From: a virus
Virus record (IMG/VR): IMGVR_UViG_3300031754_000219
Span: 1-22,692 of that record
Direction: 5' to 3' (one strand)
Length of the DNA: 22,692 nucleotides
Below the pieces are notes generated by a model. The model ran no database searches. It had not been told where the DNA came from and saw only the letters and a list, made by a program, of their open reading frames with translations. Each line of letters opens with the position of its first letter. Position 1 is the stretch's first letter. The position numbers and the translations under genes were made by a program. Below, in pieces: positions 6,401 to 22,316 of the stretch.

Positions 6401-7060
6401 GTGGATGTCTTTCCTACGCCCAAGCCGAATACCCCGAGTTTCTTACCGGGATTGACTTGGTCGGTCACGAAGGCCCCCAAGTTCGCCACGCGTACTCAGA
6501 GGTCTGTGTCTGGCCGCCGGCTGGACCTGGCCGACCAGCTGTACCCTATATGGACCTGGACTCTGCAGTACAGCTTTCTGCGTGGTGGTAGGGATAGCCG
6601 GTTCGGCATCGGGCCGGGCTCAGGGTACACCGAGCTGGACTCGCTGATGGGGTTCTTCTGCCGGCAGAAGCAGGCGGCCAACGCCACCTTCCTGTTCGAC
6701 GATCCGACGGACGACCAGGTAACGAACCAGGGCATAGGGTACGGTGACGGTGCGACGACGTCGTACCAGCTGCTGCGCACCATCGGCGCGGCGTACTACG
6801 GTGGCCTGTTCACCGAGCCGATAACCCAGCCCAACGCGATCCTGGCGGTATACGTCAACGGTGCCTCGGTGCCGTACTCGCTGGGCGCCAATGGCGTCGT
6901 CACCCTCAATTCGCCGCCGCCGCCTGGCGCGCTGGTCAGCGCCACGTTCAACTACTGGTGGCCAGCGAAGTTCGCGGAGGACACTTTAGATTTTGATAAT
7001 TTCGCTTATCAGTTGTGGGAGCTCCGTAAATTATCTATTGAAAGTGTACTTTTACCGTGA
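6401..7060 (+). CDS. Distal tail protein, DUF2460 / RcGTA gp12-like
   Basis: This 219-residue protein starts at GTG 6401, three bases after the tape measure stop. The N-terminus (FLPGLTWSVTKAPKFATRTQ), RLDLADQLYPIWTWTLQYSFLR, the MGFFCRQKQAANATFLFDDP stretch and the C-terminal FNYWWPAKFAEDTLDFDNFA are characteristic of the DUF2460 (TIGR02217) family, which forms the ring where the tail tube meets the hub. The final 25 codons (from about 6985) switch abruptly to AT-rich codons while the protein sequence still looks normal. The gene ends by overlapping, tail to tail, the antisense endonuclease gene by 9 bases (7052-7060). Confidence 0.85.
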   Translation: MDVFPTPKPNTPSFLPGLTWSVTKAPKFATRTQRSVSGRRLDLADQLYPIWTWTLQYSFLRGGRDSRFGIGPGSGYTELDSLMGFFCRQKQAANATFLFDDPTDDQVTNQGIGYGDGATTSYQLLRTIGAAYYGGLFTEPITQPNAILAVYVNGASVPYSLGANGVVTLNSPPPPGALVSATFNYWWPAKFAEDTLDFDNFAYQLWELRKLSIESVLLP

Positions 7061-8008
7061 TTTCATTCCTAATTTCCATCCATCAGGGAGTGGGAGATCA
7101 CGACGAAGACGTTTATTGATTATGCTATTGTTGATCCAGATTAAAGCACTGGATGCTTTGCTTTTTCTTTCTTTCATGCCTGGTCTGGCGTTTATCTCTG
7201 CGGCCATTTTACTTGTAGCTGCACGTTGCGCTGGATCTTCATAACGTCGCTTTGCTCCTAGTGATTGGTTTAATTTCACTTCCGGTCTCATAAATGCTAT
7301 GTTAATTGCTTCGATTCTCTTCGCTCGTGATTCATTATCTGACCATTGAGTTTTAGTTATCTTTGCAATTCTGGATCGTGTTTCCGCAGTGCGTATTTTC
7401 CCAGTGTTACTCTTAGATATTTTCGATCTTGTTTCTACATTTGGAGGCTTTCTGTTTTTGGCCGATATACTCATTCGCGCCTTAGAGTCTAGAGAACGTG
7501 GGCGTCTGAGATTTGGATTAGCTTTCATCGATGAGATTGCGCGATTACGATATTCTGGATCACTCCATCGTTTCTTCATTATTTCGGTCAATTTAGCGCG
7601 TCGTTGGTCATTCCATGTATTTTGTAAGATAGCACTAAATAGTGGACCATACGGTCCAACACGTCCACATGCTTCTATTACATTATATCCCCATTTGATT
7701 GTATCAAATGTTTTTATCAAATCAACTTCTATACGTAATAGTAACTCTGGTTCGTAGTTAGTCATATAATATAATGGAATAATAATAAATGATTTTGATC
7801 TGTATTTCTTGATAGCGTTTCTAAGTTTAGATGGACTGCCAGATCTAGCGTGTGACGTTAATCTATTTTGGAGGTTTTCGCTAATACCGATGTATCCTTT
7901 ACCGTTGATCATATTCCATATCATGTATGCGCCCGGTCTCGGTATGGGTAAGTTGACAGGATTTGCCATGAATGATTTCCATATTACGAAATTATTATTA
8001 TTACTCAT
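7052..8008 (-). CDS. GIY-YIG homing endonuclease with NUMOD-type repeats
   Basis: This is 318 residues from ATG 8008. A TTG at 8035 would add nine residues, but AAAGGA at 8016-8021 is correctly spaced for the ATG. The GIY-YIG nuclease domain occupies residues 24-115: GAY at 26-28, YIG at 39-41, catalytic Arg49 (LQNRL) and metal-binding Glu94 (RIEVDLIKTF), closing with WGYNVIEACG. Residues 150-300 hold Arg/Lys/Ser-rich DNA-binding repeats of the NUMOD3 type (SKSNTGKIRTAETRSRIAK). The C-terminus (WINNSIINKRL, then LPDGWKLG) is a short motif seen in phage endonucleases. The gene is much richer in A and T than its surroundings and antisense to the late genes, so it was acquired from elsewhere. 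Confidence 0.9.
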   Translation of the reverse strand: MSNNNNFVIWKSFMANPVNLPIPRPGAYMIWNMINGKGYIGISENLQNRLTSHARSGSPSKLRNAIKKYRSKSFIIIPLYYMTNYEPELLLRIEVDLIKTFDTIKWGYNVIEACGRVGPYGPLFSAILQNTWNDQRRAKLTEIMKKRWSDPEYRNRAISSMKANPNLRRPRSLDSKARMSISAKNRKPPNVETRSKISKSNTGKIRTAETRSRIAKITKTQWSDNESRAKRIEAINIAFMRPEVKLNQSLGAKRRYEDPAQRAATSKMAAEINARPGMKERKSKASSALIWINNSIINKRLRRDLPLPDGWKLGMKSR

Positions 8009-8077
8009 TTGATATTCCTTTAGTAAGATGATCAAACGGCACTATATACTTAAATAACTATTTTTGATACATAAATT
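8009..8077. promoter_or_regulatory. AT-rich leader between the endonuclease and hub genes
   Basis: These 69 bases are almost entirely A and T. On the minus strand they contain the endonuclease ribosome binding site (AAAGGA, 8016-8021) and TATATA-like stretches near 8043-8050 that could serve as a promoter, though I see no convincing -35 element. On the plus strand there is no Shine-Dalgarno sequence before the hub ATG at 8078, and an in-frame TAA lies just upstream at 8072. The stretch looks like part of the inserted endonuclease element. Confidence 0.4.
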
Positions 8078-9085
8078 ATGCGCCCCGACCCGTCCGGCCA
8101 GGTGGCCAGCTTCCTCGCGTCGAACCGATCGTTCGTCGTCGCCGATTTGTGGGGCTTTCGCACGGTCTACGGCGAGTACCTTTCCTTTTCGGGATACACC
8201 ATACCGTTCACCCTGGGGCCGTCGCTCTTCGATCAGCACTCGATATGGAGTGGGTCGCCTACTCCGGTGGTGTTTGGCCTCGGTCCGCGGTTCGGCCGCA
8301 CCAAGACCGCGGTCAAGGTCGGGCTGGCGGTCGAGACCCTCGACCTGGCGGTGTACGCTGGTCCGTCGGACTCGGTCGGCGGGCTCTCGTGGCAGGCTGC
8401 GTTCTTCAACGGTGTGTTTGACCTCGCGACCGTGGAGCTGGGTCGCCTCGTCTGCTCCACCACGCCGGGTGCGGGGATAACCGGCATCGTCGGCTACGTG
8501 GTGTGGTTCCAGGGCCTCGTCGGCGACGTCGAGGTGGGCCGCACGACGATCGCGGTGAAGGTGAACTCGACCACGACGCTGATGACGGCCCAGTACCCGC
8601 GCCGCGTCTGGCAGCACACGTGCAGCCACGTGTTCGGCGACGCCATGTGCCAGTTCGACCGCCAGTCGATGGCCGTGACGGTCCAGGCGCAGGCGCCCGT
8701 GATGGCCCAGACGACGATCACGACGGGATTCAACCCGAACCCGTCGAACCTCTACGACCTTGGCACGATCGTAGGGCTCTCCGGTGGCAACGCCGGGATC
8801 AAGCGCACCGTGAGCAACGCCGAGGGCGGCGTCGTCAACTTCACCGCGCCGTTCATCTATACGATCCAGCCCGGGGACTACTTCTCGCTGCTGCCGGGGT
8901 GCGACCACACGCTGAGCGCCTGCCAGAATTACTTCAACAACCTGGGGCACTTCGGTGGACAGCCGTACATCCCGCAGAGTGAATTCGCCATCGCGCTGCT
9001 CGCCGCCGCCTGGCTCGGATCGTTCCTTCAGCACTTTGGTAGTACTATCTTCCATTCAATAGGCTCGTCGCTTGGCCTGTGCTGA
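8078..9085 (+). CDS. Tail hub protein, DUF2163 / RcGTA gp13-like (lambda gpL-like)
   Basis: This is 335 residues from ATG 8078; an in-frame stop at 8072 rules out a longer form. The N-terminal beta domain (residues 1-165) is followed by PRRVWQHTCSHVFGDAMCQFD (residues 174-194) and LLPGCDHTLSACQNYF (271-286), hallmarks of the DUF2163/TIGR02218 family. Cysteines 182, 191, 275 and 282 have the C-x8-C and C-x6-C spacing of the lambda gpL C-terminal domain, which binds a [4Fe-4S] cluster. About 80 residues separate the two pairs, more than in gpL. The protein forms the hub between the distal tail ring and the attachment protein. It overlaps the next gene by 14 bases. Confidence 0.85.
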   Translation: MRPDPSGQVASFLASNRSFVVADLWGFRTVYGEYLSFSGYTIPFTLGPSLFDQHSIWSGSPTPVVFGLGPRFGRTKTAVKVGLAVETLDLAVYAGPSDSVGGLSWQAAFFNGVFDLATVELGRLVCSTTPGAGITGIVGYVVWFQGLVGDVEVGRTTIAVKVNSTTTLMTAQYPRRVWQHTCSHVFGDAMCQFDRQSMAVTVQAQAPVMAQTTITTGFNPNPSNLYDLGTIVGLSGGNAGIKRTVSNAEGGVVNFTAPFIYTIQPGDYFSLLPGCDHTLSACQNYFNNLGHFGGQPYIPQSEFAIALLAAAWLGSFLQHFGSTIFHSIGSSLGLC

Positions 9086-9527
9086 TGTCGCGACCTGTCG
9101 CGAAGCGTTAGTCACTGCGGCCGAAGGTTGGATCAGGACCCCTTACGAGCATGCCCAGCGTCTGCGCGGCGTTGCAGTGGACTGTGTAAATTTGCTCTGT
9201 TCGGTTTATGAGGAGGCTGGGCTCACTAGTCACATCGTGCTGCCCCACTACACGCAAGATTGGATGTTACATAGAAGTGAAGAATTGTTTCTCATGGGTG
9301 TACTGGAGCGGCACCTGCACGAGGTTACCGCACCCCTCGCGGGCGACGTGGCGCTGTTTCGGTACGGGCGCTGCTACTCTCACGGTGCGATCGTGACCCG
9401 CTGGCCGAAGGTGATCCACTCGTTCGCCGGCCTGGGCGGTGTGGTGCGCGGCGACGCGACGCGGCACCCGCTGCTCGACAGGACCGGCCAGCCGCGCGCG
9501 GTCAAGTTTTATTCGATGTTAAGCTAA
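9072..9527 (+). CDS. NlpC/P60-family tail peptidase, RcGTA gp14-like
   Basis: This 151-residue protein reads from TTG 9072, overlapping the hub gene. The catalytic Cys is C38 in GVAVDCVNLL, after the family's TPYEHAQRLRG lead-in. His104 in CYSHGAIVT is the second catalytic residue, and H116 (KVIHSF) completes the usual pattern. GDVALFRYG before His104 is also typical. Such proteins (TIGR02219) sit at the tail tip and cleave peptide stems of peptidoglycan during DNA entry. The single-domain length is normal for this tail-tip form. The gene ends in tandem stops (TAATAA, 9525-9530), which is unusual among its coupled neighbours. Confidence 0.85.
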   Translation: MACADVATCREALVTAAEGWIRTPYEHAQRLRGVAVDCVNLLCSVYEEAGLTSHIVLPHYTQDWMLHRSEELFLMGVLERHLHEVTAPLAGDVALFRYGRCYSHGAIVTRWPKVIHSFAGLGGVVRGDATRHPLLDRTGQPRAVKFYSMLS

Positions 9528-9568
9528 TAAAGACAGGAGCTAAAGCCTCATGAGAAAGGATAGGTAAA

Positions 9569-9609
9569 ACGAATGGCGGGTCAACCCACGCCGTTCGTTT
9601 GACGAACGG
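9569..9609 (+). promoter_or_regulatory. Two mutually exclusive hairpins around a start codon and an in-frame UGA
   Basis: Hairpin A pairs 9569-9580 with 9586-9598 (12 pairs including one T-G wobble, with A9588 bulged); the ATG at 9573-9575 lies in its 5' arm. Hairpin B pairs 9591-9598 (CCGTTCGT) with 9602-9609 (ACGAACGG), eight perfect pairs with loop TTG. Both use 9591-9598, so only one can form at a time. The UGA at 9600-9602 sits in the loop of B, with its A in the first pair. No T-run follows B, so it is not an ordinary terminator. Confidence 0.55.
9573..9602 (+). CDS. Short leader ORF, or true N-terminus of the gp15-like protein before an in-frame UGA
   Basis: ATG 9573 has GGATAGG 8-14 bases upstream as a moderate ribosome binding site and encodes MAGQPTPFV before UGA 9600. 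Reading straight on in the same frame gives RTVNAFDHPSLQGLRYNV and then the annotated start at GTG 9654. MAG...LQGL...YGSPIPV is the expected N-terminal pattern of this attachment-protein family, so these nine codons probably belong to the next gene. Options are UGA readthrough, ribosome hopping, a real nonsense mutation, or a sequencing error. A regulatory leader peptide is also possible. Confidence 0.5.
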   Translation: MAGQPTPFV

Positions 9610-9653
9610 TAAACGCATTTGATCATCCCTCCCTGCAGGGGCTGCGCTACAAC

Positions 9654-10871
9654 GTGGCGCAGTACGGATCGCCCATTCCGGTCCTGTGGGGGACCCACCG
9701 TGTGTCGACGAACCTGTTAGATTACTTCGGATACCACTCGACCGGCAGCGGCAAGGGCGGCGTCACGGGCAGCAAGACCGGGAAATCTGGCAACTACTCG
9801 GCCAACGTGGCGCTTGGGTTCTGCGTGGGTCCAGCCGGGCCGCGGCCGAACAACTCGATATGGCTCGACGCTGGCGTTACCAACACGAATCGGGTACCGC
9901 TTAACTTCTTCGCCGGATACGACGGACAGCCGGCGGACCAGACGTTTCTGTCGTCGTCGCCCAACACTCCGGTGGTCGGGTACTCTGGGCTGTGCTACGC
10001 CACCGCCACCCCGATGCAGTTCGGCCAGGCCGGGGTGCTGCCGAACCTGTCCGTGGAGATCAACGGGTTTCGAACCGGCACGGCGGGCAACAACACCGAG
10101 GTCATTGTCGACGCCAGCCCGGCGCTGATCGTCTACGACATGCTCTACGACCCGCGTGTTGGGATAGGCTTTCCGGGGGTCCCGGCCGACCCTTCACTAT
10201 TCCAGACCTACTGCCAGGCGGCGCTGTTCGGGTTCTCGCTGCTCTGCGACAGGCAGCAGCCAACTTCGCGGTGGATTGAGGAGGTGCTGGAGCTAACCAG
10301 CTCGGCTGTCGTCTGGTCGTCCGGCCGTCTCATGTTCATACCCTACTCCACGGAGCAGCTAGACAACAATGACGCTGTCTACTACCCGAACCTGACGCCG
10401 GTCGCGAACCTTACAGACGACGACTTCATACCGTGGAGCGTCGGCACCTCGCATCAGGTGGGGGAGAAGGACGTGGTGCTGGCGACGCGGAACGACGTGT
10501 CGCAGCTTACCAACTGGCTGACGCTAGAGATAATGTACCGGCCGTATTGGTATGACCCGCTGGTGCAGCCACCGACGTTCGACCAGGCTTCGATCGAGCT
10601 CTACGGCGTGCGCAACATAGCCACGGTGCAGGCCCACGAGGTGTGCACCCAGACGGTCGGCGGCAACGTCGCCTCGACCATGCTGAAGCGCAGGCACACG
10701 CTGCGCCGGACGTACAAGTTCAAGGTCGGGATACGCTGGATGCTGCTGGAGCCCATGGACATAGTCACCATAACTGACCCTACCTACCTGACCCAGTTCA
10801 ACGTGAGGCTGACCGCCGTTGAAGAGGACGAGGGCGGCGTTCTGACGATAACGGCCGAGGACCTGGTGTAG
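9654..10871 (+). CDS. Tail-tip attachment protein, N-terminal part (RcGTA gp15-like / host-specificity type)
   Basis: GTG 9654 gives 405 residues, but conserved-looking coding (LQGLRYN) continues upstream in frame to a UGA at 9600 and beyond it to ATG 9573, so this GTG is probably not the natural start. Features: AQYGSPIPVLWGTHRVSTNLLDY at the N-terminus; a Gly/Ser-rich loop at about residues 25-45; ALIVYDMLYDPRVGIGFP near 160; SRWIEEVLELTSSAVVWSSGRLMFIPYS near 205-232; and a C-terminal MLLEPMDIVTITDP block. This order matches large tail-tip attachment proteins that follow the NlpC peptidase. Its C-terminal half appears to be the next gene. It caps the tail and connects to the fibres. Confidence 0.75.
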   Translation: MAQYGSPIPVLWGTHRVSTNLLDYFGYHSTGSGKGGVTGSKTGKSGNYSANVALGFCVGPAGPRPNNSIWLDAGVTNTNRVPLNFFAGYDGQPADQTFLSSSPNTPVVGYSGLCYATATPMQFGQAGVLPNLSVEINGFRTGTAGNNTEVIVDASPALIVYDMLYDPRVGIGFPGVPADPSLFQTYCQAALFGFSLLCDRQQPTSRWIEEVLELTSSAVVWSSGRLMFIPYSTEQLDNNDAVYYPNLTPVANLTDDDFIPWSVGTSHQVGEKDVVLATRNDVSQLTNWLTLEIMYRPYWYDPLVQPPTFDQASIELYGVRNIATVQAHEVCTQTVGGNVASTMLKRRHTLRRTYKFKVGIRWMLLEPMDIVTITDPTYLTQFNVRLTAVEEDEGGVLTITAEDLV

Positions 10872-10873
10872 CC

Positions 10874-11521
10874 ATGCGCGAGCGGCTGCCTTACGACCGG
10901 CTGGCGCCGGCCTCGCCGACGGCGCCGCCGGTCCTGTTCGAGCCTCCAGGAGCGCTCACGGGCAACCGGCACGAGGTGTGGATCGCTGCGGCTGGTTCGT
11001 CCGGGTGGGGCGGAGCTGAGGTGTGGGTGAGCCTAAACGACCGGAGCTACGACAGGCTTGGCACGATCTGGCGCGGTTGCGTCGTTGGCACCCTCGCCTC
11101 GCCGCTGCCGGCGGCAGCTGAGGATCCCGACACGACTAGCTCATTCCACGTCGACGTGACGCCATCTAATGGTGTGCTTCACCCAGGGCACCCCGACGAC
11201 GCGGACCTCTACACGACGCTCTGCTGGGTGAGCGACGAGCTGATCAGCTACAGCAGGTCGACCCTGGTTGGCCCGCGCCTCTACTGCCTGGACGGCCACC
11301 TGCGCCGCGGCGCCTTCGGGACGCCGGTGAAGCACCACGACGCAGGCCTGCCCTTCGCGCGGCTGAACGCGGCGGTGTTCCGCCACCAGTACCCGGCCCA
11401 CCTGGTGGGCCAGACCATCTACGTCAAACTGCCGGCGATGAACGAGCACTACCAGTGGCTCCAGGGCCTCGACGAGGTTGAGCCCGCTTCCCTGCTACTA
11501 ACCGGCGCGAGCGCGAGGTAG
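10874..11521 (+). CDS. Tail-tip attachment protein, C-terminal part (split gp15-like)
   Basis: This 215-residue protein starts at ATG 10874, two bases after the TAG of the preceding gene and in a different frame. [24 protein letters not shown] (about residues 18-42), [21 protein letters not shown] and the [27 protein letters not shown] stretch (about 120-150) are usually the C-terminal part of the same polypeptide as the upstream gene. The two therefore look like a split of one ancestral attachment protein. The split lies exactly between domains, so both parts may fold and assemble together. No ribosome binding site is obvious, so coupling to the upstream stop is likely. Confidence 0.7.
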
Positions 11522-18950: not shown

Positions 18951-19127
18951 TTACTGCTGAACGAAGACGTATTTGTCGTCGATGAGGTAGAAGCTGCCAG
19001 GAGGTAAGTTAATGTTGTCGCTTTCGAGGCTGTACTTCGCGATGATATCTTTGTGGATGTCGTATAGCCTCGAATCGAGACGTTCGACGCGGGTACCGTA
19101 TCTTTGGGCGTAAGTTTCGAGGTTCAT
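18951..19127 (-). CDS. Small hypothetical protein (58 aa), first gene of the minus-strand cluster
   Basis: ATG 19127 is chosen over an in-frame ATG at 19151 because GAGGAGG (19133-19139) lies five bases before it and the longer form would put that site inside the gene. The product (MNLETYAQRYGTRVERLDSR ... GSFYLIDDKYVFVQQ) is a helical N-terminus with mixed charge followed by a short beta C-terminus. No family is recognised. It is the promoter-proximal gene of the cluster and reads away from the large propeller gene. Confidence 0.7.
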   Translation of the reverse strand: MNLETYAQRYGTRVERLDSRLYDIHKDIIAKYSLESDNINLPPGSFYLIDDKYVFVQQ

Positions 19128-19152
19128 GAGGTCCTCCTCGGTCGAGAGCACG

Positions 19153-19181
19153 ATGATACGCTCTTCTCTCGGAAAAGTAAA
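19153..19181 (-). promoter_or_regulatory. Sigma-70-like promoter for the minus-strand small genes
   Basis: On the minus strand, TTTACT (19176-19181) is followed after exactly 17 bases by TATCAT (19153-19158). These match four and five positions of the consensus. Transcription would start near 19146 and leave a leader of about 20 bases with the GAGGAGG site. The -10 overlaps a small inverted repeat (AGAGC, ten bases, GCTCT) that could be an operator. Confidence 0.5.
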
Positions 19182-19199
19182 CAGAAAAATGAAGGTGCG

Positions 19200-22100
19200 A
19201 TGACGATTCTCCCGAACTCAGCCACAGACCTCGCGCTCCGCGCGTTCGAGACGCGGCCGTCGCGCGCCGAGGCCCTGGCCGACCTGGCTCGGCACGCGCG
19301 CGACCTGGGCATGAACGAGACCGCGGCGATGTTCGCCCGGCGTGGCCTCGCGGTCCCTCCGAGCGACGACCTGCTGTTCGTCGAGGGCTGGTCGCGTGAG
19401 TCGCTGGCGACCGACCTCGTGATCTGCGGCTACTACTCGCGCGATCCCGAGACGCGCGAGCTGGCCCACAGGACAGCCGAGGCGCTCGCGCTCGACCGTT
19501 CCGTCTCGGCCGACGTGCGCGAGCTGGCGCGGCAGAACCTGTTCTGGTACGCCCCGAAGCTCCGGACGCTCGCTCCATCCTGGCAAGCGAGGCAGATTGA
19601 ATGGATGCACGGTGCACCAGAAGGGTGGCATGCAATGAACCCATCAATTTGTCGATACGACGGCAAATTGATGGCGATTATACGGTGTGTGAATTACTGG
19701 ATAGAGCCGGACGGGAGCTATAAGTTTCCTGATTCTGAGCCTGCCGTAATTACCAGAAACTTTCTGGTTGAGCTTCATCTGCGGAACCCCCACATCGTCA
19801 GGCGCACCGTCGGAGAGGTCGTCGCCGACCTCGGCACCATGTGGTGGGGCAACGTGCGGGGCATGGAGGACCTCCGGTTGTTTACGATTCGCAGCTCCGA
19901 CCAGCTGTGGTTCTCGTGCGCATGCCGGCAGATGAACGCGGACGGGGTGTGCGAGCAGCTTATCGGGAGCCTCGACGCTGACGGCTTCGTCCGCGTGCTC
20001 ACGCCAATGAGGCTCAACACCGGCCGGTACGAGAAGAACTGGATGCCGCTGATCGACGCTGATACTCCTACCTTCATCTACCGTGTCGACCCGACGACTG
20101 TCGTCCGACCCGACATGACCACCCTTCCTGATGGCCGGCCGGCCGCGATCGCAGGCGACAACTTCGCCGGCTCGGCCCAGCTGGTGCGGTTCGACGGTGG
20201 CTGGCTCGGGATGGAGCATGAGCCGCTGGCGAGCCCGATCAACGGGCGCCGGCTCAACCAGCAGCGCTTCGTCTGGTTCACCGATGGCCTCGAGCTGACG
20301 GCGGTCAGCCGACGGTTCATCTTCGAGCTTAACGAGGAGATCGAGTACGTGATGGGGCTGGTCGATGACGGGGACAGGCTCATCATTTCCTATGGGTCCC
20401 ACGACCGGCAGGCCCGGGTCGGCACGCTCGAAGCTGACAACGTGCGGAGGATGCTGGATAAAGAGCCATGGGTGGCGCGAAAACCATCATCTACTTCAAT
20501 CGAGACAGTTCCAAAGCCGTGGAGGATAATTGACAGGATCGTCCCCCCGTCGGATCACGATGCGCTCGCTCTAGACCGCACCGCCTCACCTGAGGCGCGC
20601 GAGGTGGCGCGTCGCGCGTCCGTCGCCGAGCTCCTGGAGGTACAGGAGCTGCTGCCGTCGTGGTGCCAACGGCGGCTGGTGTTCGCGCCGCCCGAGGGCT
20701 TCGCGGCGATGGCACCCAGCGTCGTCAACCGCAGGGGCAGGCTGCTCGCCACGGTGCGGTGCATCAACTACGCGTGCAATGACGAAGCCGGGTACCACAG
20801 AATAGCCGACGGCGCGCCTATGGGCCGCGAAGCGGTCAGGCCAGTGAGCCGCACATTCATGGTTGAGTTCGACCCAGAGACTATGAACGATAGCACCCTT
20901 GGCGAGCTTAGCACGACTAGGGTTTTGCAGAAGCCTCGCGAAGACGCACGCGCCCTCGGCTTCGAGGACGTGGTGCCGTTCGAGTGGGGCGAGAAGCTGT
21001 GGGGTATAGCCGCCTTCTCCGAACAGTCGGCGGACGGCCTACCCGAGCAGTGGCTGATCAGGATCGACGAGGACGTGTGGTCGGTTGATCACGCTCTCCG
21101 CCTAAGCTCGCAAGCTGGACCACGCCGCGCCGAGAAGAACTGGATGCCGGTAGCCGGTGGCAGCCCAACGCCGCGGTTCGTCTACCTGTGCGATCCGACG
21201 ACGATCTTAAATTACCGCGGCGAGGTCGTCCACCGCAGTGAGCTGGAGTTCGCCGCGGAGCACCTCCACGGTGGCTCGCAGGCTGTGCCGTTCGCTGGTG
21301 GTTGGCTGGCGGTGGTGCACTGGATGCAGGTGCTCGACGAGGCCAACCGGTGGGCCGACTTCGAGTACAGGAACCGGTTCGTCTGGTTCGACAAGAGCCT
21401 CGCCCTGCGCCGCGTTTCACCGGCGTGGACGTTCCCGGTAGACCCCTCGGTTTCGCCGTTCCCGCGGCGCTTCCAGATAGTCCACGGGCTCGCCTGGCAC
21501 CCGGACGGTCGCCGCCTGGTGGTGGGCTACGAGATGTACGAGCGCGAGCCGTGGGTGGCCGGGGTGGACGCCGACGACGTCCGCAGGCTCATGGGATTTT
21601 CGGAGGTGGATGTGAATACAAATGTGAAGATGGAGACGAATTCTGCGGCGGCAATTGGCGACCATTGGGTTCTGGAGCAGACCAACCGATCACTGCAGAA
21701 TTCAGAGTCCGTAGAAGAGGCGACCCACGCACTGCGCGCGCTGGGGCTGCCGGAGTGCGGTGGGTGCCGCGAGAAGAACTGGGACACCTACCTGGGCATC
21801 TGGCACGCTCTTAAAACCTGCGTTCATGCGCCAGAAGCGCCCATCCTCGACGCCGGTGGCGATCGTCACTCGGTTTTCCTCCCAGGGATGAGGAAGCTCG
21901 GCTACCAGAACCTCCTCAACGTGAACATCGCCGAGTGGTCCCCTGGAGACGAGAGCGGCATCCGCTTCCGCCGCGGCGACATAACGGCGCTGGACCTGCC
22001 GGACCAGTCGCAACAGTTCGTCATGTGCCAGTCAGTCCTAGAGCACGATGTAGACTGGCGTAGGTTCTTTGACGAGATGGCCAGGGTCATCTTGCCCGGC

Positions 22101-22316
22101 GGTGGTCTCTTCGTGTCGATAGACTACTGGGGGCGGTCGACCTACGAGGGCGTGAAGATCTTCGACGAGGGAGAGGTCCGCGAGATGGTAGACCACGCCG
22201 CCAACCGCGGGTTGCGCCTATCGTCGCCGATGGACTACTCCTGCCGCGAGGCGTGCGTCGAGTGGGACGGCCGTCGGTACACCTTCATGAACATGCTGTT
22301 CGTCCGCGCGCAGTGA
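19200..22316 (+). CDS. Tandem beta-propeller (GH43/GH130-like) protein fused to a SAM-dependent methyltransferase
   Basis: ATG 19200 has AAGGT a few bases upstream and gives 1038 residues; a longer frame to 19104 would run across the promoter region. Residues 1-125 are TPR-like helices. Residues 126-430 and 480-800 are two copies of one beta-propeller-like domain. Each opens after a LALDR...PSW helix with PEGxxAMxPS and R(C)xNY, and each contains EKNWMP, xxDPTT and RFVWF. Residues 845-1038 are a class I methyltransferase: ILDAGGDRHS at 882, LNVNIAE near 906, and MCQSVLEHDVDWRRFFDEM at 942-960. Motif I is atypical (DAGGD instead of GxGxG). The propellers resemble glycan-active folds. The combination suggests a glycan-modifying enzyme; donor and acceptor are unknown. 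Confidence 0.7.
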   Translation: MTILPNSATDLALRAFETRPSRAEALADLARHARDLGMNETAAMFARRGLAVPPSDDLLFVEGWSRESLATDLVICGYYSRDPETRELAHRTAEALALDRSVSADVRELARQNLFWYAPKLRTLAPSWQARQIEWMHGAPEGWHAMNPSICRYDGKLMAIIRCVNYWIEPDGSYKFPDSEPAVITRNFLVELHLRNPHIVRRTVGEVVADLGTMWWGNVRGMEDLRLFTIRSSDQLWFSCACRQMNADGVCEQLIGSLDADGFVRVLTPMRLNTGRYEKNWMPLIDADTPTFIYRVDPTTVVRPDMTTLPDGRPAAIAGDNFAGSAQLVRFDGGWLGMEHEPLASPINGRRLNQQRFVWFTDGLELTAVSRRFIFELNEEIEYVMGLVDDGDRLIISYGSHDRQARVGTLEADNVRRMLDKEPWVARKPSSTSIETVPKPWRIIDRIVPPSDHDALALDRTASPEAREVARRASVAELLEVQELLPSWCQRRLVFAPPEGFAAMAPSVVNRRGRLLATVRCINYACNDEAGYHRIADGAPMGREAVRPVSRTFMVEFDPETMNDSTLGELSTTRVLQKPREDARALGFEDVVPFEWGEKLWGIAAFSEQSADGLPEQWLIRIDEDVWSVDHALRLSSQAGPRRAEKNWMPVAGGSPTPRFVYLCDPTTILNYRGEVVHRSELEFAAEHLHGGSQAVPFAGGWLAVVHWMQVLDEANRWADFEYRNRFVWFDKSLALRRVSPAWTFPVDPSVSPFPRRFQIVHGLAWHPDGRRLVVGYEMYEREPWVAGVDADDVRRLMGFSEVDVNTNVKMETNSAAAIGDHWVLEQTNRSLQNSESVEEATHALRALGLPECGGCREKNWDTYLGIWHALKTCVHAPEAPILDAGGDRHSVFLPGMRKLGYQNLLNVNIAEWSPGDESGIRFRRGDITALDLPDQSQQFVMCQSVLEHDVDWRRFFDEMARVILPGGGLFVSIDYWGRSTYEGVKIFDEGEVREMVDHAANRGLRLSSPMDYSCREACVEWDGRRYTFMNMLFVRAQ

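Follow-up and report, generated by a model that had tools for sequence, protein, structure and literature searches.

A hairpin-forming 12-nt insertion with an in-frame UGA interrupts the tail-hub gene of a phage contig

The tail-hub gene of the viral contig IMGVR_UViG_3300031754_000219 (22,692 nucleotides, referred to as the window) is interrupted after its ninth codon by a 12-nt in-frame insertion that begins with UGA. The frame opened by ATG 9573-9575 on the plus strand reads MAGQPTPFV, then TGA at 9600-9602, then RTVNAFDHPSLQGLRYN in the same frame, an arrangement that had been described correctly in the original prediction, and past the UGA this frame (RTVNAFDHPSLQGLRYNVAQYG) is open until the stop codon at 10869-10871. 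The explanation we favour, at a little short of an even chance, is a recent hairpin-templated insertion by which expression of the hub was lost or strongly reduced. Recoding of the UGA is possible, unproven and not favoured. The features of the site are the following.

9573-9599, plus strand: 5' coding segment of the hub gene, ATG GCG GGT CAA CCC ACG CCG TTC GTT, i.e., MAGQPTPFV; the residues match those of the relatives L007, L088, and L086
9600-9611, plus strand: 12-nt insertion TGA CGA ACG GTA, i.e., UGA and three sense codons, found in no relative
9591-9609, plus strand: perfect 8-bp hairpin CCGTTCGT-TTG-ACGAACGG with a 3-nt loop and the UGA at the loop and 3' arm; -12.7 kcal/mol, z -3.9
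9567-9600, plus strand: alternative 5' hairpin AAACGAAUGGCGGG...CCACGCCGUUCGUUU covering the start codon; -19.5 kcal/mol, z -4.7
9597-9599, plus strand: putative take-off codon GUU (Val), a role suggested by the sequence
9609-9611, plus strand: putative landing codon GUA (Val), followed by the AAC of the conserved NAF; role likewise putative
9612-10871, plus strand: remainder of the hub gene (gp15/gpJ/GTA-megatron type by Pfam and PDB 6tba_8A), intact and, judged by dN/dS, under purifying selection
9654-9656, plus strand: formal GTG start within a conserved LRYN-TSQ-GSP stretch; the segment from the UGA to this GTG carries 24 bits of family homology

Inspection of the sequence bore out the earlier claim that the frame has no ATG, GTG, or TTG from the UGA up to GTG 9654. 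TGA is the stop codon in 13 of the 19 tabulated open reading frames of the window, once followed by C (the frame ending at 2171). A changed genetic code, which the original prediction had also dismissed on account of TGA being a normal stop in the neighbouring genes, is thereby ruled out. So is a +1 or -1 frameshift at GUU UGA, as neither of the other frames stays open for more than a few codons (TAA 9610-9612, TGA 9620-9622). A mini-ORF of five codons (MRKDR, 9551-9568) with AGGAG upstream directly precedes ATG 9573.

The interrupted gene encodes a phage tail hub of the gpJ/GTA-megatron type. The protein matches Phage-tail_3 in Pfam (PF13550, E 1.2e-21) and tail proteins in PHROG, and a profile search identified 6tba_8A, the Rhodobacter capsulatus GTA megatron Rcc01698 (E 1.1e-19). 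6tba was also found when the AlphaFold model was searched with Foldseek (E 1.2e-15), and lambda gpJ and T5 tail-tip proteins match by both routes. Upstream of the hub are a DUF2460 gene, a GIY-YIG gene, a BR0599/Gp84-type gene, and an NlpC/P60-like gene, and downstream is a Rcc01698_C-like reading frame. This second hub reading frame (ATG 10874, to 11521) holds the C-terminal Rcc01698_C domain, and L007 is split likewise. The GIY-YIG homing endonuclease gene is free-standing (7052-8035, minus strand) between the DUF2460 and DUF2163-type genes; none of the five relatives searched has it, and in L086 the flanking genes abut (1637/1638). A link to a homing endonuclease as in T4 was considered and rejected, as nothing connects the GIY-YIG gene, whose end lies about 1.5 kb upstream and which those five relatives lack, with the insertion. 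Some 90-100 nt extra (8993-9099) separate the DUF2163-type gene, at its conserved end, from the conserved start of the NlpC-like gene; they add a 30-residue hydrophobic tail and shift the NlpC-like start to TTG 9072. Far from the tail genes, the frame 19104-22316 (1070 residues) has a C-terminal methyltransferase domain and two similar-looking N-terminal repeats. The window contains no known RNA family and no tRNA gene, although a tRNA may be encoded outside the 22.7-kb contig.

The case for an interrupted gene comes from the comparison with relatives. Alignment-guided scanning, twice over viral contigs and once over bacterial genomes, yielded about 125 distinct homologues whose N-terminus could be read, and all of them begin further upstream than GTG 9654 would lie. 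The alignment that the original prediction had called for thus identifies ATG 9573 as the homologous start and the UGA as an interruption of the gene; the residues ahead of GTG 9654 are indeed conserved, the true N-terminus lies upstream, and no relative begins at the GTG. Among the three closest relatives, L086 (64% identity) begins (T)AGHPTPFV-QSF, L007 (60%) MAGQATPFT-NAF, and L088 (56%) MAGHPTPFT-SAF, so that all three join AG[QH]xTPF[VT] straight to [NQS][AS]F where the window reads MAGQPTPFV-[UGA RTV]-NAF. The next group of relatives has the N-terminus GKGGGPTPFVNAF and similar. Relative to its close relatives the window therefore has exactly four extra codons, TGA CGA ACG GTA, with conserved residues on both sides of the stop. 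The same four positions appear as a four-column gap in the close relatives when 31 relatives are aligned with the window (A3), and a family HMM from which the window was left out assigns them to four insert states. Inclusion of the segment from the UGA to GTG 9654 raises the score against this HMM by 24 bits (535.4 versus 511.0). Since GTG 9654 lies inside this conserved region, it is not the ancestral start.

Neither a stop nor an insertion at the equivalent of 9600-9611 was present in any of the ca. 125 distinct N-termini. None of 31 loci from bacterial genomes (prophage relatives) had the insertion, and a degenerate scan of viral contigs for PFV-TGA-xx-V-NAF gave no match. Two exact scans for same-species contigs, with or without the insertion, found none among the records scanned; a single-sequence search of genome contigs found no relative, and none was found with DUF2460 as bait. 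On the 3' side of the insertion the NG86 estimates are dN 0.29 and dS 1.40 against L086, and 0.33 and 1.30 against L007. Past the insertion the hub gene is unbroken, and these values indicate purifying selection on it. The nine codons before the UGA encode a conserved protein segment with many synonymous differences from L007, L088, and L086. The DUF2460, DUF2163-type, NlpC-like, and downstream reading frames can be aligned almost end to end with those of L086 and L007, at 55-70% identity and with no frameshifts, and the tape-measure gene aligns with 29-42% identity, also free of frameshifts. From these comparisons the interruption would be either recent or silent, both being compatible with a set in which no relative has the insertion.

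Of the 12 inserted bases, eight (ACGAACGG) match exactly the reverse complement of the adjacent upstream CCGTTCGT, and the two stretches form the hairpin at 9591-9609; the other four are not accounted for by the inverted copy. L086 has an identical CCGTTCGTT without the insertion, and no further copies of the hairpin element occur within the window. The hairpin at 9567-9600 pairs the start-codon region with CGCCGTTCGTT and, as the two share bases, excludes the one at 9591-9609. The window is GC-rich, and places of equal energy on its plus strand number 69 for the 9591-9609 hairpin and 18 for the 9567-9600 hairpin, for which reason neither is evidence of function. What stands above chance is the comparison with relatives, i.e., conserved flanks of the stop with only four codons extra. 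The question put by the original prediction, whether UGA and hairpin are kept in relatives, is answered in the negative for every relative found.

Template switching can create perfect hairpins in one event (PMC8794818). In the explanation we favour, the polymerase switched template inside CCGTTCGT during replication of the phage or prophage and copied the reverse complement back, which would have left a 12-nt in-frame insertion that forms a perfect hairpin and brings a UGA directly behind the ninth codon of the hub. Any full-length hub still made would then come from rare misreading of the UGA or a rare Val-to-Val hop, neither with an evolved signal. About three copies of the hub (gpJ) are needed per virion. 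Both hairpin arms are still perfect and no relative has the insertion, from which we infer that the event is recent and the allele null or strongly reduced. The inverted copy of adjacent sequence (eight of 12 nt exact) and the lack of the insert in L086, L007, and L088 are as expected of a template switch, and the hairpin requires no functional explanation since its strength is ordinary for the window. That none of the ca. 125 relatives has a stop or insertion here, and that the comparable neighbouring genes are unbroken, speaks for the same explanation. On the other hand the length is a multiple of three, the stop directly follows a Val codon and the last inserted codon is again one for Val, a hop-compatible combination that by rough estimate is about a 1-in-50 coincidence. 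Furthermore, four of the 12 inserted bases do not derive from the inverted copy, and an essential hub gene with a null allele would be expected to disappear from a lytic population. A prophage could carry such an allele, and the window genes examined include no recognisable integrase.

The closest relative of the window offers a parallel of its own. In L086 (2968-3003, AGGAGG-CGGTC-ACG-GCG) an ACG is found five bases past AGGAGG where others have ATG, and ahead of the conserved region its frame has no canonical start (ATG, GTG, or TTG). In L148 the expected start position is occupied by GTT, but the frame is open and has a GTG further upstream, so that one or two of about 125 homologues have a non-canonical start, one of them L086. 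This may be chance, or the hub may tolerate very low expression.

The probabilities given here to the favoured explanation and to its four alternatives are our judgement and were not computed. Foremost among the alternatives, though unlikely, is readthrough, in which a near-cognate tRNA would read UGA-C at a few percent to give MAGQPTPFV-x-RTV-NAF, enough for a low-copy hub. The insertion is in frame, its UGA is followed by C, and coding sequence is conserved on both sides of the stop in one frame. The N-terminal arm (residues 1-22 and 27-32) has pLDDT below 50 in the AlphaFold model and its length varies across the family, so four extra residues look tolerable, and the apparently weak start of L086 looks as if low expression were tolerated. 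Against this, the UGA and the extra residues are in no relative, the frame ending at 2171 uses UGA-C as an ordinary stop, and the window has no tRNA gene, suppressor or other. Somewhat less probable still is the hop that the original prediction had raised as its more speculative alternative, which would make the site a natural in-frame stop-hop with a phage bypass element of 12 nt, the hairpin insertion being silent at the protein level. The peptidyl-tRNA-Val would leave GUU 9597, skip UGA CGA ACG, and land on GUA 9609 to give PTPFV-NAF; by analogy to the stem loops of T4 gene 60, the 5' hairpin might re-zip behind the ribosome while the second holds the stop. The product would be exactly the family sequence with zero extra residues. 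The take-off codon directly precedes the stop, the UGA (9600-9602) is contained in a take-off-type hairpin (9591-9609) which a 5' hairpin overlaps, and synthetic in-frame stop-hops, 9 nt read as one amino acid, are documented (PMC5009743). However, GUU and GUA are synonymous and not identical, differing in the third base, the landing codon has no Shine-Dalgarno-like element upstream, and the nascent peptide is just nine residues. The element is kept in none of the ca. 125 relatives and the collection scan gave 0; the 5' stem loop has z -4.7, yet 18 equally strong places in the window. While the restored family sequence speaks for the hop, a selected recoding signal is not supported, as there is no conservation, the hairpins are of ordinary strength and the insertion looks like a one-step template switch.

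We find it doubtful, to a slightly greater degree, that the insertion is a sequencing or assembly artefact from chimeric or fold-back reads. The contig is from a metagenome, and fold-back chimeras typically give inverted copies; such a chimera would, however, not rejoin the original strand after 12 nt, and the remainder of the contig is clean wherever comparable. Least probable is initiation past the UGA, either at GTG 9654 or at ACG 9606, a near-cognate codon in frame, which would give a hub with a shortened N-terminal arm. The confident part of the AlphaFold fold begins after residue 32, with GTG 9654 as residue 28, the arm is short in some distant relatives (MSGLTNAA), and L086 apparently starts at ACG. 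Such a start is opposed by the ca. 24 bits of conserved sequence between UGA and GTG and by the LR motif, which extends to the R. capsulatus GTA megatron, so that a start at 9654 would keep the confident fold but lose a conserved arm; neither site has a good Shine-Dalgarno sequence, and no relative starts there.

If the hub were expressed via the hop, the site would rank as the first natural in-frame stop-hop and as a bypass element of very small size, and a bypass element could then arise in a single template-switch step. Otherwise it is a clean case of a phage gene with a hairpin-templated insertion, and it warns that the GTG start which a gene finder would call here is wrong.

The hub shares sequence and fold with the RcGTA megatron Rcc01698, lambda gpJ, and T5 pb3, but is unlike them split in two reading frames (9573-10871 and 10874-11521). 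With T4 gene 60 the site has in common a stop directly after the take-off codon, a take-off-type hairpin around the stop, a putative 5' stem loop, a landing codon for the same amino acid, and a hop product equal to the uninterrupted family sequence. T4 gene 60 has a 50-nt gap between GGA and GGA, whereas the window has a 9-nt in-frame gap between GUU and GUA. T4 bypassing uses a KKYK nascent-peptide signal 25-30 residues from the P site (PMC5009743, PMC11194080) within a nascent chain of 46 residues; the nine residues of the window are too few, which makes a signal of this type impossible. The window further differs in having no Shine-Dalgarno-like element and no conservation, and its hop product is predicted. 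The byp elements of Magnusiomyces capitatus mitochondria are also short inserts that interrupt conserved genes, some with non-identical take-off and landing codons, but they occur in 81 copies and on mitochondrial ribosomes, while the window has one copy and involves no unused or unassigned codon. According to a review no natural in-frame stop-hop is known (PMC5009743). The synthetic ones resemble the putative hop of the window in crossing a stop in frame and in linking two codons of one amino acid (matched codons in the synthetic cases), with 9 nt read as one amino acid compared to 15 nt in the window, take-off and landing codons included. Short-range template-switch mutations produce an adjacent exact reverse-complement copy, and with it a perfect hairpin, in one event, which matches the window; the window differs in that four of its 12 inserted bases are unexplained by the copy and in that its uninserted comparison is a relative, L086.
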